Part shown: in pieces, positions 39,321 through 61,381 of the stretch | Layout of the letters: each line of letters opens with the position of its first letter | How positions within the stretch are numbered: the first letter of the stretch is position 1 | From: Limnospira fusiformis SAG 85.79 | Lineage (GTDB): Bacteria > Cyanobacteriota > Cyanobacteriia > Cyanobacteriales > Microcoleaceae | Direction of reading: 5' to 3' | Assembly: GCF_012516315.1 (NCBI RefSeq) | Contig: NZ_CP051185.1 | Coordinates: 2,035,403-2,099,402 of the forward strand | Length of the DNA stretch: 64,000 nucleotides | The notes under the pieces: generated by a model | The model's input: only the letters and a program-made list of their open reading frames with translations | What the model was told of the DNA's origin: nothing | The model's database searches: none | Translations under genes and position numbers: made by a program

Positions 39321-39351
39321 TGGCAATTGACCCACCAGAAAAGGGTAGCGT

Positions 39352-39614
39352 CAGAAATCCTGAATCATCATGAATATATGAGGGGGGAAGACTGACGCAC
39401 CAGAAATTTGTAGGGTGTGTCAGAAATCCTGAATCATCATGAATATATGAGGGGGGAAGACTGACGCACCAGAAATTTGTAGGGTGTGTCAGAAATCCTG
39501 AATCATCATGAATATATGAGGGGGGAAGACTGACGCACCAGAAATTTGTAGGGTGTGTCAGAAATCCTGAATCATCATGAATATATGAGGGGGGAAGACT
39601 GACGCACCAGAAAT
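39352..39614. repeat. 69-bp tandem repeat, four copies
   Basis: Copies start at 39352, 39421, 39490 and 39559, the last partial. Each unit carries GTGTGTCAG near one end and CTGACGCAC near the other, which pair with one G-T wobble, enclosing AATCATCATGAATATATGAG. The copies are virtually identical apart from the first left flank (GGGTAGCGTCAG). The array fills the gap between the binding-protein gene and the end of murE. Confidence 0.93.
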
Positions 39615-44243: not shown

Positions 44244-44780
44244 GTGCAACTAGATCTCAACCAGCTTCGAGAACTGCTGGCTGACATCGATAAAACTAAT
44301 ATTTCCGAACTGACGCTCAAAAGTAGTGATTTTGAGTTGATGGTACGCAAAGGTGGCAGTTCTATCGATCGCCCTCTATCTTCTGTTGATGTCGCCCTCA
44401 GTGGTGGGTTTCCTAGTGCGGAGTTGGTGTCGCCTCCAGGGACGGTTTCTACTGGCGATCGCTTATCAGAATCAACCGCCACCAGCACCCAGACTACTGC
44501 CGCCACAGGAAAGGTCTCTAGTCCGGTTGACGCTAAATGGGTAGAGGTAACATCCCCCATGGTGGGAACTTTTTACCGTTCTCCGGCTCCTGATGAGCCG
44601 CCATTTGTGGATAATGGCGATCGAGTCACTAACGGTCAAACTGTCTGTATCATCGAAGCCATGAAGCTGATGAATGAAATTGAGGCTGAGGTTTCTGGTC
44701 AAGTTATGGAAATTTTGGTAGCTAATGGCGCACCTGTGGAATATGGACAACCCCTGATGCGAATCGACCCCGACAATTAA
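44244..44780 (+). CDS. accB: Biotin carboxyl carrier protein of acetyl-CoA carboxylase
   Basis: 178 residues from GTG 44244. An N-terminal helical part ([20 protein letters not shown]) is followed by a Ser/Thr/Ala-rich linker and the biotinyl domain ([20 protein letters not shown]) with the biotinylated lysine in [15 protein letters not shown]. It carries the carboxyl group for the first step of fatty acid synthesis. It follows efp on the same strand. The stop TAA lies within an AT-rich heptamer array. Confidence 0.95.
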
Positions 44781-44808
44781 TAATTAATAATTAATAATTA
44801 ATAATTAT
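44775..44808. repeat. AT-rich heptanucleotide array (TAATAAT-type), left
   Basis: TTAATAA-type units repeated about four to five times directly over the accB stop. A matching inverted array borders the other end of the 93-bp repeat block at about 45950-45981. Confidence 0.8.
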
Positions 44809-44860
44809 CATCCTCGTAGGGTGAGTCAGAGGGATCACCTATCGGGTGAACGGCACAGAG

Positions 44861-45958
44861 GTCAAGAAACCCGGTTTCTCAAAGAAACCGGGTTTCTCAT
44901 GGGCAGAAAATTGACGGCGGAACCCACCCCGACAATGAATAATTATCGCCGTGGTCAAGAAACCCGGTTTCTCAAATAAACCGGGTTTCTCATGATAAAG
45001 GGTGGGAGGCGCGCCCCGACAATGAATAATTATCGCCGTGGTCAAGAAACCCGGTTTCTCAAATAAACCGGGTTTCTCATGGGCAGAAAATTGACGGCGG
45101 AACCCACCCCGACAATGAATAATTATCGCCGTGGTCAAGAAACCCGGTTTCTCAAAGAAACCGGGTTTCTCATGGGCAGAAAATTGACAGCGGAACCCAC
45201 CCCGACAATTATTAATTATCGCCGTGGTCAAGAAACCCGGTTTCTCAAATAAACCGGGTTTCTCATGGGCAGAAAATTGACAGCGGAACCCACCCCGACA
45301 ATTATTAATTATCGCCGTGGTCAAGAAACCCGGTTTCTCAAATAAACCGGGTTTCTCATGGGCAGAAAATTGACAGCGGAACCCACCCCGACAATTATTA
45401 ATTATCGCCGTGGTCAAGAAACCCGGTTTCTCAAAGAAACCGGGTTTCTCATGGGCAGAAAATTGACAGCGGAACCCACCCCGACAATTATTAATTATCG
45501 CCGTGGTCAAGAAACCCGGTTTCTCAAAGAAACCGGGTTTCTCATGGGCAGAAAATTGACAGCGGAACCCACCCCGACAATTATTAATTATCGCCGTGGT
45601 CAAGAAACCCGGTTTCTCAAATAAACCGGGTTTCTCATGGGCAGAAAATTGACAGCGGAACCCACCCCGACAATTATTAATTATCGCCGTGGTCAAGAAA
45701 CCCGGTTTCTCAAATAAACCGGGTTTCTCATGGGCAGAAAATTGACAGCGGAACCCACCCCGACAATTATTAATTATCGCCGTGGTCAAGAAACCCGGTT
45801 TCTCAAAGAAACCGGGTTTCTCATGGGCAGAAAATTGACAGCGGAACCCACCCCGACAATTATTAATTATCGCCGTGGTCAAGAAACCCGGTTTCTCAAA
45901 TAAACCGGGTTTCTCATGGGCAGAAAATTGACAGCGGAACCCACCCCGACAATTATTA
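44861..45958. repeat. 93-bp tandem hairpin array, twelve copies
   Basis: Units start (GTCAAG) at 44861, 44954, 45041, 45134, 45227, 45320, 45413, 45506, 45599, 45692, 45785 and 45878; all are spaced 93 bp except one of 87 bp. Each holds GAAACCCGGTTTC, a short loop (CAAA or CAAATAA type), then GAAACCGGGTTTC, a perfect 13-bp stem. The connecting part reads GGGCAGAAAATTGAC. The first units differ slightly (GACGGCGG against GACAGCGG; one has GATAAAGGGTGGGAGGCGCG). Since 93 is divisible by 3, long frames stay open on both strands by periodicity alone. Confidence 0.95.
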
Positions 45959-45981
45959 ATTATTAATTATTAATTATTAAG
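45950..45981. repeat. AT-rich heptanucleotide array (TTATTAA-type), right
   Basis: About four ATTATTA-type units bound the hairpin array on the right. They run into the last codons of the aspartoacylase gene, supplying its final Leu-Ile-Ile-Asn-Asn and stop. Confidence 0.8.
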
Positions 45982-46877
45982 GTTTGGGGTTCGGTGAAAA
46001 TCATGGCGATCGCTTTTTCGTAGTAGGCTGCCTCATTGATAAAAATCGGCCAGACGGGGGTTTCTCCCTGGTAATAAATGGTGGTTCCGTCAAACTGTAA
46101 AAACATCGGATCGCCCGGGTTTAGCTGTTGATAATCCCTCCCCTGTAGTTGTGGGTGAATCATGGCGGCGAGTTCCCCCGTCGCCGTGCGGGGATAGTCT
46201 ATCTGTTTGATAAACTGGTATATGGTGAGAGTGCGATCGCTGTGGATAATCTCCCCCCGATTATACTTTTCTATGTAGTCTAAAATCGCATAAATCACCT
46301 TTTCCGCTTTCAGAAATAATGCCGCATCTAACATCCCTGGCGCAATGGGTCCGACTTCGATGGAAAATCCGTAATTAGACAAAGATTTGAGGGAGGGGTT
46401 TGCCGGTTCCGATTCAGATTCGATCCAACTGTAGATATTTATTTCGGGAAAAATGCTTTTTAAATAGGCGGTAACTTGGCGATTAAAAGCATTATTTTTT
46501 ACCCAAATTAAGGTTAATCCCATGTGGGCGGTGCTGCTGTGTAAATCAATGATGGTATCAACAGGAGATGGGCTTTGGGGTCCCCACTGGCTGGCTATCC
46601 ATTGCGATCGCTGAATTTCATAAATATCAGAATTGGGATGTTCTAAATCTTCCCGCCGAAAACAGCGGTTTAAATCACGATCAACATAGCGACGATTAAT
46701 TTCCCAGGCGCGGGGATTAGCTAATAGTGTGAAAGTCTCAAAATTAGAACGCCGCAATAATTCAGGCGATCGCTCAAATTTCTTAATCAAATAAACTCCC
46801 GTCCATTCATTGCCATGAGTGCCACCCACAATGGCAACTCGTTTGATTTTACCATGATTTTCTGCTGTTAATCCCAT
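45963..46877 (-). CDS. Aspartoacylase-like zinc carboxypeptidase-fold amidohydrolase
   Basis: 304 residues, of the AspA/AstE family that hydrolyses N-acyl amino acids such as N-acetylaspartate. Zinc ligands are in VGGTHGNEWTG (His, Glu) and IIDLHSSTAHMG (His); DLNRCFR and SIEVGPIAPGMLDA (catalytic Glu) are family blocks. The last five codons (LIINN) come from the AT-rich heptamer repeat, suggesting that the original C-terminus has been altered. The physiological substrate in cyanobacteria is not known. Confidence 0.9.
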   Translation of the reverse strand: MGLTAENHGKIKRVAIVGGTHGNEWTGVYLIKKFERSPELLRRSNFETFTLLANPRAWEINRRYVDRDLNRCFRREDLEHPNSDIYEIQRSQWIASQWGPQSPSPVDTIIDLHSSTAHMGLTLIWVKNNAFNRQVTAYLKSIFPEINIYSWIESESEPANPSLKSLSNYGFSIEVGPIAPGMLDAALFLKAEKVIYAILDYIEKYNRGEIIHSDRTLTIYQFIKQIDYPRTATGELAAMIHPQLQGRDYQQLNPGDPMFLQFDGTTIYYQGETPVWPIFINEAAYYEKAIAMIFTEPQTLIINN

Positions 46878-58193: not shown

Positions 58194-59708
58194 TTACCAC
58201 AGCAGAGGACCTTCTACCTGCTCAGGAATTGCTGATGGTGTTGCTGGAGGTGGTGGAACATCTCCCGTGGTTGCGGGTGGCTGATTGGTTTGTTCTGGCT
58301 GTGGCTGATTGGTTTGTTCTGGCTGTGGCTGTGGCTGCGGCTGTGGCTGTGGCTGCGGCTGTGGCTGTGGCTGTGGCTCTGGCTGTGGCTGTGGCTGATT
58401 GGTTTGTCGTTGCGCTTCTTGCTTGGCGGCTTCTGCTTCTCGCTTGGCGGCTTCTGCTTCTCGCTTGGCGGCTTCCGCTAGTCTCCTCGCTTCTGCTGCT
58501 TCCGCATTCAGCCTTTCTTGGCGCTGTTGTTCCGCAATGCGTCTTTCTTCCTCCCGTTTCTGATCATTAGCGCGATCGATAATTGGTTGCACTTTTTGTT
58601 TCCAATATTCGCTATCTTGTCGCGGTGATTCCCCCAATAATGCTACCCTTTCCGTTTCTGCGATCGCCTCCCTCCAAGCCTCTCGGTTCAACGCCTGTCT
58701 CGCATTTTCTAGGTAATTCTCATTCCGATTCCACTCCTGCTCCCATTGGGAAAGTTCTTGCTTAACTCTGGCGGCGTTGGGACTCGTTTCGGGGATAGCT
58801 TCAGCAATTTTTACCGCCTGCTGATAATTACCTTGGCGATATTGTTCCTGCGCTAATTCCTCCATCCGTTGAGATGCTTGCTTAAAGAAATTTTGCGCTT
58901 CTGAGTAGGAAGAAGTATTTTCGGGAACCTGTAAAGCCATATCGATCGCACCCCGCCAAGAACCCGCTTCCGCTAAACTATTCGCCTGTTTCATTAACAC
59001 CGCCGCATGACCATCCTCACAACTTTTTAACAGTCTTGTTAACTCGGATTTTAATACAGGTGTCATCCCGGTAGTTGTCGGTTCTATGGTTAATGCCGTT
59101 TTACAAGTCTCATAAGACTCCTGGGATGCTACCATATTACCCTGTTGATGATAACTAGCTCCCTGGTCTAGTGCTTGTTCCGCCTCCGCGATCGCATTTC
59201 TGATCGGTGCAGCAGCCTGCCATTTATACACCCAAAATCCTCCCCATCCCAAGCCGATCATTAATACCACTCCACCCAACCAGGGTAATGCTTTCTTAAC
59301 CGGAGAAACTGGCGGCGGTGGTGGCGGTTCCGGTGGTGGTGGCGGTAGTTCTAACCCTCCCGACACTGGCTGGGTTCCAGCGGCGATCGCTGTGACTTTA
59401 AAATCTATATTTCCTAACTGAATATGGCTGCCATTATTTAGGGGTTCCTCACCCACAGGTAGCAATTTACCATCTACAATTGGCGGGTTACTTTCCCGTA
59501 GCGATCGTAGATAAAATTGGTGATTCTCTGGACTAAAAAAAATTTCGATATGTAGACCGGATACCGTCTGATCCACGCACACTAAATCACAGCGACTCCC
59601 ATCTCTACCTATACGGAAAACTCCCGGATGTTTGCTGGGTTGGTTGGCTCGAATACTGGCGCTATTCAACCTTCCCTCTTCTGCCCACTCTAAGGTTAGT
59701 TCAGCCAT
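58194..59708 (-). CDS. FHA domain-membrane-TPR-like protein
   Basis: 504 residues. The N-terminal FHA domain (about 20-110) has FRIGRDGSRCDLVCVDQTVS, GLHIEIFFS and LRESNPPIVDGKLLPVG; the usual asparagine in the N-G motif is modified (NPPIVDG). A proline linker (about 120-135) and one membrane helix (LPWLGGVVLMIGLGWGGFWV, about 140-160) follow. Helical TPR-like repeats fill about 170-370 (AEQALDQGASYHQQGNMVAS, AVKIAEAIPETS), then an alanine-lysine-glutamate coiled coil (REAEAAKREAEAAKQEA) and a PQPQP-rich tail. FHA inside and repeats outside would make it a transmembrane adaptor. It is 37 bases upstream of the coiled-coil FHA gene. Confidence 0.75.
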   Translation of the reverse strand: MAELTLEWAEEGRLNSASIRANQPSKHPGVFRIGRDGSRCDLVCVDQTVSGLHIEIFFSPENHQFYLRSLRESNPPIVDGKLLPVGEEPLNNGSHIQLGNIDFKVTAIAAGTQPVSGGLELPPPPPEPPPPPPVSPVKKALPWLGGVVLMIGLGWGGFWVYKWQAAAPIRNAIAEAEQALDQGASYHQQGNMVASQESYETCKTALTIEPTTTGMTPVLKSELTRLLKSCEDGHAAVLMKQANSLAEAGSWRGAIDMALQVPENTSSYSEAQNFFKQASQRMEELAQEQYRQGNYQQAVKIAEAIPETSPNAARVKQELSQWEQEWNRNENYLENARQALNREAWREAIAETERVALLGESPRQDSEYWKQKVQPIIDRANDQKREEERRIAEQQRQERLNAEAAEARRLAEAAKREAEAAKREAEAAKQEAQRQTNQPQPQPEPQPQPQPQPQPQPQPQPQPEQTNQPQPEQTNQPPATTGDVPPPPATPSAIPEQVEGPLLW

Positions 59709-59800: not shown

Positions 59801-61381
59801 TTAGATACACCAAATTTTGATCTGATTGTCTTCACTACCACTAGCTAGATTTTGTCCATCGGGACTAATGGCGATCGCTCCTACTTGCCAACTATAACCG
59901 GAAATAGTGCGGATTTCTGTCTGCGTTTCCCATTGCCAAACTTTCACCGTTTTATCATCAATTCCAGCAATTAAAATTTTGCCATCTGGACTAAACATCA
60001 GAGCATTAATCGCCGTTTTACCACCCTCAATAGTCAAAATTTCCTCCCCTGTTTTTACCTGCCATAGTTTAATGGTTTTATCTCCACTACCACTGGCGAT
60101 AATTTCACTATTAGGACTGATGGATAAGGCAGTTATAGCTAATCTGTGTCCTGATATATTGAGCGTTTCTAAACCAGTTTCGCGGCTCCATAATTTCACG
60201 GTTTTATCACCACCGCCACTGGCGATAATTTCACCATTCGGCGCAAAAGCAATAGCATTAACTGCCATTTTATGACCCGCTAAGGATTGGATTTCTTCTC
60301 CTGTATTAATATCCCAAAGTTTGATGGTTTTATCTTGGCTACCACTAGCTATAATTTGACCGTCGGGACTGAAAGCAACCGCATTAACTCCTGATCTGTG
60401 TCCCTCAAATGTGCGGATCTCTTCTCCATTACTCAGGTTCCAAAGTTTAACGGTTTTGTCAGCACTCGCACTGGCTAACATTTTACCATCTCCACTGAAA
60501 GCAACCGATCGCACAGAGTTAGAATGTCCCCCTAAAGTTCGGATATCCGCTTCTGGGTTCAGAGTCCACAAACTTCGACCCGGTGCTGATATTTCCCCTG
60601 CTTGTATCCCGAAAATCTTACTCTGACTCTTTTCGTCTTCCCCTTCTGACTCCGCTACAGGTTCGGGTTCTGACTCCGCTACAGGTTCGGGTTCTGACTC
60701 CGCTACAGGTTCGGGTTCTGACTCCGCTACAGGTTCGGGTTCCGACTCCGCTACAGGTTCGGGTTCTGACTCAATTATGGGTTCGGGTTCTGACTCAATT
60801 ATGGGTTCGGGTTCTGACTCAATTATCGGTTCGGGTTCTGACTCAATTATGGGTTCGGGTTCTGACTCAATTATCGGTTCGGGTTCTGACTCAATTATGG
60901 GTTCGGGTTCTGACTCAATTATCGGTTCGGGTTCTGACTCAATTATCGGTTCGGGTTCCGACTCAATTATCGGTTCCGCAATGGGTGGGAGAGAATTATC
61001 AGAAGTTGGCGGCTGAGGCTTGGTTTGATATTCAAATACAAATTCGGGTCCATCCTCACTAAGTTTAATGCGATCGCCTGCTTGGAGGGGATGATTTACC
61101 GCCATACGCACACCATTAATAAAAGTGCCATTGACACTATTAAGATCCTCAATTTCCCACAGTTCTACAGAACCTTCTAATACTGGCTTAATTTTGGCGT
61201 GATACCGCGATACCATTGTATATTGAAGAGAATCAACTACAATATGAGCATCTTTACCACGACCCAAAATAACTTCTTTAGCCGCAGATAAATCATACTG
61301 AAACACAGGATGATCTGGTTTTTTATTACCGGGAATACACAATTTAATGACAGCACATTTGTTTAGGTTAGATTCAGACAT
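59801..61381 (-). CDS. FHA-WD40 protein with Glu-Pro repeat linker
   Basis: 526 residues from ATG 61379-61381 (the frame opens six codons earlier). FHA (about 35-105): [30 protein letters not shown] and [19 protein letters not shown], a complete phosphothreonine-binding set. The linker has 14 tandem octapeptides (nine EPIIESEP, five EPVAESEP; 24-bp DNA repeat at about 60640-60975). Six WD40 repeats follow ([38 protein letters not shown] and so on). It reads as a soluble scaffold joining a phosphoprotein to another partner. It heads the FHA run and faces the coiled-coil operon. Confidence 0.82.

Follow-up and report, generated by a model that had tools for sequence, protein, structure and literature searches.

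A twelve-unit hairpin array beyond accB in Limnospira fusiformis SAG 85.79: probable amplification of a RAYT-linked, REPIN-like repeat

Between accB and a convergent aspartoacylase-type gene of Limnospira fusiformis SAG 85.79 there is a tandem array of twelve closely similar units. In our judgment the array has quite likely arisen by local tandem multiplication of an intergenic repeat of mosaic structure, with a core that is a REPIN-like hairpin (B) belonging to a RAYT-linked family of 15-3-15 geometry. B itself is most likely a mobile-type element resembling REPINs, and not a gene. RAYTs are widespread single-strand DNA transposases, and we know of no established role that they play for the host.

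The process that we propose has three steps. The RAYT would bind B and spread it at a low rate via single-stranded hairpins. A copy of B would have entered, or recombined with, the A, C and heptamer repeats already lying beyond accB, and slippage or unequal recombination would then have multiplied the hairpin together with its flank into twelve units. Movement of B by a RAYT is suggested by their association and by published work on other REPINs; neither an empty-site pair nor an excision product was seen. Amplification of hairpin plus flank is suggested by the pattern of the units, and by the Pseudomonas REPIN clusters that are described in a section of PMC3116915 as copied with their flanks.

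The array, its neighbors and the sister genome

We analyzed a window of 64,000 nucleotides from the SAG 85.79 genome, which comprises 6,423,694 bases in one contig. Tandem repeat finding (TRF) and comparison of the units place the array at 44861 to 45970, with units starting at 44861, 44954, 45041, 45134, 45227, 45320, 45413, 45506, 45599, 45692, 45785 and 45878. Eleven units are 93 bp in length and that at 44954 is 87 bp, giving start-to-start spacings of 93, 87 and then nine times 93. TRF itself reports a repeat at 44860-45963 with a period of 93, 11.9 copies, 96% matches and a score of 2012. The initial annotation of this DNA, made from the letters alone, had described twelve units of 93-bp period with a single unit of 87 bp, and this is borne out.

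Each unit is a mosaic of the 33-bp hairpin B, half of a palindrome C and an AT heptamer. B comprises AGAAACCCGGTTTCT and its reverse complement separated by a 3-nt gap, that is 15-bp arms and a 3-nt loop. Unit comparison, folding and a scan for 15-3-15 hairpins locate twelve copies between 44865 and 45914, starting at 44865, 44958, 45045, 45138, 45231, 45324, 45417, 45510, 45603, 45696, 45789 and 45882. With up to one mismatch allowed the scan finds twelve such hairpins in the window, and none in each of five mononucleotide shuffles. Four hairpins folded in isolation gave -19 to -25 kcal/mol (z -5.3 to -7.1), and 0/200 shuffles folded as well. A stem of 13 bp had been proposed for the whole array. 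This applies to seven units, in which a G-to-T change shortens the stem to 13 bp and widens the loop to 7 nt, but not to units 1, 4, 7, 8 and 11, which have the full 15-bp stem and 3-nt loop.

From unit 1 to unit 12 the state of that one hairpin base is G T T G T T G G T T G T, and the order looks like growth by copied blocks of one to three units each. Units 1-3 have older variants in common and units 4-12 are alike. Together with the block-like G/T pattern, this upholds in outline the order of expansion that had been read from the first copies. Tandem repeats are prone to miscounting, and we used a single assembly of SAG 85.79. That the number of units is an artefact of assembly is nevertheless very improbable, as the diagnostic bases differ among units in an ordered fashion, and the published genome of the same 6,423,694 length is stated in the assembly details of PMC8085491 to derive from reads over 35 kb at 114x with Illumina polishing.

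The neighbors on either side are as initially annotated, confirmed by open reading frames and Pfam. To the left is accB (biotin carboxyl carrier protein, 178 aa; 44244-44780, plus strand; PF00364, E 2.8e-24), and to the right, convergent with it, the aspartoacylase-type gene (304 aa; 45963-46877, minus strand; PF24827, E 6.3e-36). The AT heptamer arrays said to flank the hairpins are present in the TRF output. The left array (AATTAAT, 4.7 copies, 44775-44807) overlaps the accB stop, and the right array (AATTATT, 4.3 copies) lies at 45951-45980. The end of the aspartoacylase gene (IINN and stop, 45963-45980) lies inside the right array, and growth of the repeat can therefore alter the C terminus of the protein.

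Between the left heptamers and the first unit is the left half of an A-type palindrome (44813-44855, plus strand), with GTAG at 44816-44819 followed by GGTGAGTCAG. This half is 93% identical to L002:2485-2527 of the sister genome PCC 9108, and resembles sequences at the loci L046, L038, L033 and L042. The spacers carry the remainder of the mosaic. That at 45264-45323, for example, consists of a half of the C-type palindrome (GAAAATTGACAGCGGAACCCACCCCGACAATT) and one AT heptamer, and has 88-90% identity with stretches at L033, L038, L034, L042 and L041. Unit comparison shows the spacer of the 87-bp unit 2 (unit 44954-45040), at 44991-45044, to be divergent.

We compared the orthologous accB site in one genome, Arthrospira sp. 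PCC 9108 (G001, CP066886.1), where the DNA of accB is 96% identical. There accB is followed first by a 135-aa gene, then by an A palindrome in full and lastly by C-type palindromes in an array whose spacers resemble those of the window array; there is no B. As the window retains the left half of A, and a half of C in its units, A and C material was probably present at the site beforehand, and from these sequences the two lineages have probably amplified different mosaics. The 135-aa gene (L002:2084-2488) has no match in SAG 85.79, has a match in 9/13 genomes searched, and belongs to no Pfam family on searching. AT heptamers occupy the gap that corresponds to it in the window (44781-44812); going by position only, the array and the absence of the gene may be causally connected.

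A second array lies within the window at 39342-39614 (69 bp x 3.9 copies), built of an A-type palindrome (GGTGTGTCAG ... CTGACGCACC, following GTAG). Further tandem repeats at 58277-58502 and 60644-60976 have periods of 6, 21, 24 and 42 bp and up to 14 copies; since these are all multiples of 3 they are perhaps coding. A tRNA scan found none. The 16 Rfam matches at E <=1 (best 0.00017) are miRNA-type families placed on the palindromes, far under gathering scores, and we attribute them to chance.

RAYT genes and the dispersal of 15-3-15 hairpins

A search for the unit elsewhere in the genome had been suggested, and the hairpin proves to be dispersed. The B pattern has 188 forward matches in SAG 85.79, at no fewer than 15 loci when places listed within 5 kb are taken together, compared with 2 matches in PCC 9108; since most copies are tandem, 188 versus 2 overstates the number of separate insertions. 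The pattern is present in 11 of the 386 cyanobacterial genomes drawn. The B arrays across SAG 85.79 have differing periods and companion repeats. At 10 of the 15 loci listed B is abutted by GTCA (or TGAC on the opposite side), which may be a guide sequence or may merely reflect descent from one longer element. GTAG is absent from the foot of B at the 15 SAG 85.79 loci listed, and abuts none of 49 hairpins of other genera listed (up to six per locus).

The genome contains a RAYT gene that lies between B repeats, with copies on both sides (191 aa; L083/L126). Its protein matches NF047646 with 81.6 bits (cut-off 80) and PF01797 with 37.8 bits, and aligns with PDB 4er8 (TnpArep), which we take to be the E. 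coli TnpArep protein, at E 2.4e-7. The gene is of low copy number, having one close match in its own genome. The second match (E 6.4e-11) is a distinct gene at L084, a third RAYT-type gene that is also found at L088. Around the L084 gene lie a GTAGGTTGGGTG-type repeat and long frames built of that repeat.

A search for Y1 transposases returned short IS200-type genes and longer RAYT-type genes, and the latter are found with different palindromes. B is on both sides of the genes at L083 (that of SAG 85.79), L086 (PCC 9108), L103, L116 and L121. C is on both sides at L082, L085, L117, L122 and L125, and A at L087 (PCC 9108). L122 has in addition a single distant B site, and a gene of 145 aa (L112) has C sites too. 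The L087 gene has no counterpart in SAG 85.79 among the 8 matches from that genome listed. At one IS200-type locus (L102) there is a lone B half-site more than 1 kb away. The proteins flanked by B and those flanked by C fall into two distinct clades (support 100/100 and 100/97) in a tree built from 23 rows picked by hand, which carries long-branch warnings.

The PCC 9108 orthologue of the B-RAYT has its frame broken by a 1-nt deletion, and B is rare in that genome, this being one comparison. The second RAYT-type gene, between C palindromes, is at L082 in SAG 85.79 and L085 in PCC 9108. The PCC 9108 gene contains an in-frame TAG, yet C arrays are abundant at the accB site. Thus repeats need not be few where the RAYT is broken.

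Proteins matching the B-RAYT occur in 46/386 genomes at E <=1e-10. Below 1e-40 there are 28 matches in 26 genomes, and we examined one locus per genome (26/28). NHYH is present at 26/26 of these loci and YxxxNP at 24/26, the other two being truncated. A 15-3-15 hairpin with up to 2 mismatches lies within 700 bp of the RAYT gene at 20/26 loci (21 before a HIP1-like match at L127 was dropped), and on both sides at 15/26. The same scan finds the hairpin at 0/29 IS200-type loci, representing 26 distinct places (L067/L096, L077/L097 and L078/L093 were refetched), and at 0/28 accB-region loci. The scan is post hoc, designed after a shared-hairpin test (stems >=11, no mismatch) that gave 11/26 loci against 0/29 and 0/28, and was applied equally to the controls. 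Among perfect hairpins with arms of at least 11 and loops of 3-9 nt, 49/60 are exactly 15-3-15. Six of the 26 loci have no genuine 15-3-15 hairpin (L127, L129-L131, L132 and L149). B half-sites are found on both sides at L127 and L129-L131, on one side at L132, and not at L149.

The arm sequence changes between lineages. AGAAACCCGGTTTCT is that of SAG 85.79 and G239, AGATCCCCGACTTCT or AGATCCCGGACTTCT that of family f18 and G037, AGAAAGCGGGTTTCT that of f7, AGGGGACGCACCCTT that of G198 and AGAAACCGGGTGTCT that of G321. Distance between arms follows distance between proteins (Mantel rho 0.73, n=20, 0/5000 permutations, kinship ignored), although shared descent alone could be the source of such co-variation. 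Palindromes outside the RAYT locus occur in 22/26 genomes with the RAYT against 28/360 others (Fisher 2.5e-18, kinship ignored). Both palindrome patterns were chosen after inspecting RAYT flanks, and copies at the RAYT locus were for that reason excluded from this count. Within family f18 the median number of palindrome copies is 24.5 for the 12 genomes that have the RAYT and 5.5 for the 30 that lack it (p 1.6e-4, kinship ignored).

B might instead spread without the RAYT, through slippage, gene conversion or another transposase, the RAYT genes merely sitting in intergenic regions that are rich in repeats. The 28 of 360 genomes that have palindromes and lack this RAYT would fit such a route, as would the tandem disposition of most B copies and the genome G031, which has B and no match to a Y1 transposase. 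We nonetheless consider RAYT-free spread to be unlikely, given that RAYT genes are bordered on both sides by palindromes that differ from clade to clade, that none of the 29 IS200-type loci has a 15-3-15 hairpin, and that the arms differ in step with the RAYT protein. G031 may have lost its partner, or B may have reached it by an alternative route.

Coding and transcription

The array is traversed by open frames on both strands, as the initial annotation had pointed out: one of 347 aa on the minus strand (44839-45882) and one of 88 aa on the plus strand (45358-45624). Both exist in the list of open reading frames, but the coding reading attached to them gains no support from the periods of other arrays or from any credible family match. 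The 88-aa frame matches 0 Pfam families. On the 347-aa frame the matches to Toxin_20 and other Pfam families are artefacts of the repeat, in that no stretch passes alone.

Translation of a 31-residue repeat from the minus strand might be suspected from the 347 open codons, and from the fact that all twelve periods are multiples of 3. Taking the hairpin-bearing row for each array (137 at L045, for example, versus a top-scoring 144), the period is divisible by 3 in just 4/14 other hairpin arrays of SAG 85.79, approximately the level of chance; 15 loci were fetched, of which L035 yielded no array. No ORF of at least 90 aa spans any of the 15 fetched loci, and PCC 9108 carries a different array at the orthologous site. 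With no family match having a passing stretch in Pfam, a gene for a repeat protein is scarcely credible here. The open frames are incidental, and the array encodes no protein.

It had also been suggested that the array stops transcription from both sides. In such a scheme it would end or protect the convergent transcripts of accB and the aspartoacylase gene, and selection would keep the number of units. The hairpins are strong, the neighbors converge, and a hairpin array is also present here in PCC 9108. Weak terminator-like sites, 13 in all and each on the minus strand, are found in addition within the spacers of 11/12 units, compared with 3.8 +/- 1.9 in shuffles. Against this, no T run follows the 33-bp hairpins, the terminator-like sites are confined to one strand, and the contexts of the other arrays, called from the longest ORFs, are co-directional in 7 cases, convergent in 3, divergent in 2 and unclear in 3. 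A two-sided barrier maintained by selection is therefore doubtful, although a role in transcription could coexist with a REPIN origin, and an influence of the array on the RNA ends of its neighbors is possible. At the accB site the array itself is probably without function.

Promoter-like sequences are also found in the array. Nine units between 45184 and 45956 contain TTGACA-17-AATTAT (10 of 12) on the plus strand, and the region has 18 promoter-like sites against 5.0 in shuffles. These are probably a by-product of the repeat.

Relation to known repeat systems

B has the structural features of a REPIN, being an inverted-repeat hairpin in many, mostly intergenic, copies that flanks its own RAYT. 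It shares with the REPINs described by Bertels and Rainey in 2011, in the sections of PMC3116915 devoted to them, the pairing of two inverted short repeats in one hairpin, the many copies, the copies beside a RAYT gene and the tandem clusters copied with flanking DNA. The greater number of copies where the RAYT is present parallels the report, in the E. coli part of PMC8049555, of more REPINs in genomes with a RAYT. Two properties distinguish the present elements: a constant 3 nt separates the two inverted 15-mers, and several arm sequences, all of 15-3-15 size, occur within a single cyanobacterial clade. REPINs beside a RAYT were reported for Nostoc punctiforme in 2011 (in a passage of PMC3116915), and part of what we describe may already be known, the two being compared here by description.

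The REPs tagged with GTAG or CGTC, in the account given within Di Nocera 2013 (PMC3733652), are likewise palindromes of 20-40 bp, occur in cyanobacteria too, form REPtrons around transposase genes and have clusters copied with their flanks. A and C start with GTAG and may be members of that group. B differs in having neither GTAG nor CGTC at its foot, and therefore falls outside the tagged super-families; the same account names untagged palindromes as an open question.

The motifs of the B-RAYT (NHYH, FQ and YIHLNP) match the row for TnpAY1 subclass 2.1 (RAYT group 1, TIRYT) in a table of Quentin 2018 (PMC6006769), in which the motif set is NH[YF]H, FQ and Y[IV]HLNP. The lines on this subclass report that automatic and manual searches found no REP-like sequences, and that the proteins have a C-terminal HTH domain. 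The B-RAYT differs in having palindromes on both sides. Pfam gave no hit to a C-terminal HTH, with Y1_Tnp alone in the 191 aa, and the protein is for this reason not filed as subclass 2.1.

The AT-rich tandem heptamer repeats of cyanobacteria are known as STRR. The ends of the array resemble them, the heptamer being here one module of the mosaic and not the array itself. Elhai in 2008 reportedly described small dispersed repeats of Nostoc, tiny elements of 21-27 nt often within heptamer repeats, for which a route through RNA is said to have been proposed with no transposase partner. B is similar in its small size and dispersal, and differs in its length of 33 bp and in having a RAYT partner. 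A literature search with four 14-nt stretches of two palindromes matched two papers, both of them, judging by title, unrelated animal work.

We regard it as an even call whether these elements make up a distinct class of untagged cyanobacterial REPINs. Such a class would have a rigid 15-3-15 hairpin, geometry and arm recognition in place of the GTAG guide, RAYTs of the NHYH/FQGR/YIH-NP type and lineage-specific arms. With the same even weighting, these RAYTs would belong to a group so far reported without REPs.

We take B to be REPIN-like and of a type that is poorly described so far. The B-RAYT clade, most of whose members lie beside a palindrome of fixed size with arms specific to each lineage, supplies a well-defined substrate on which cutting could be assayed. 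Many odd tandem repeats in this commercial spirulina genome also find an explanation, so that where strains differ in array size the difference could be interpreted as REPIN dynamics.
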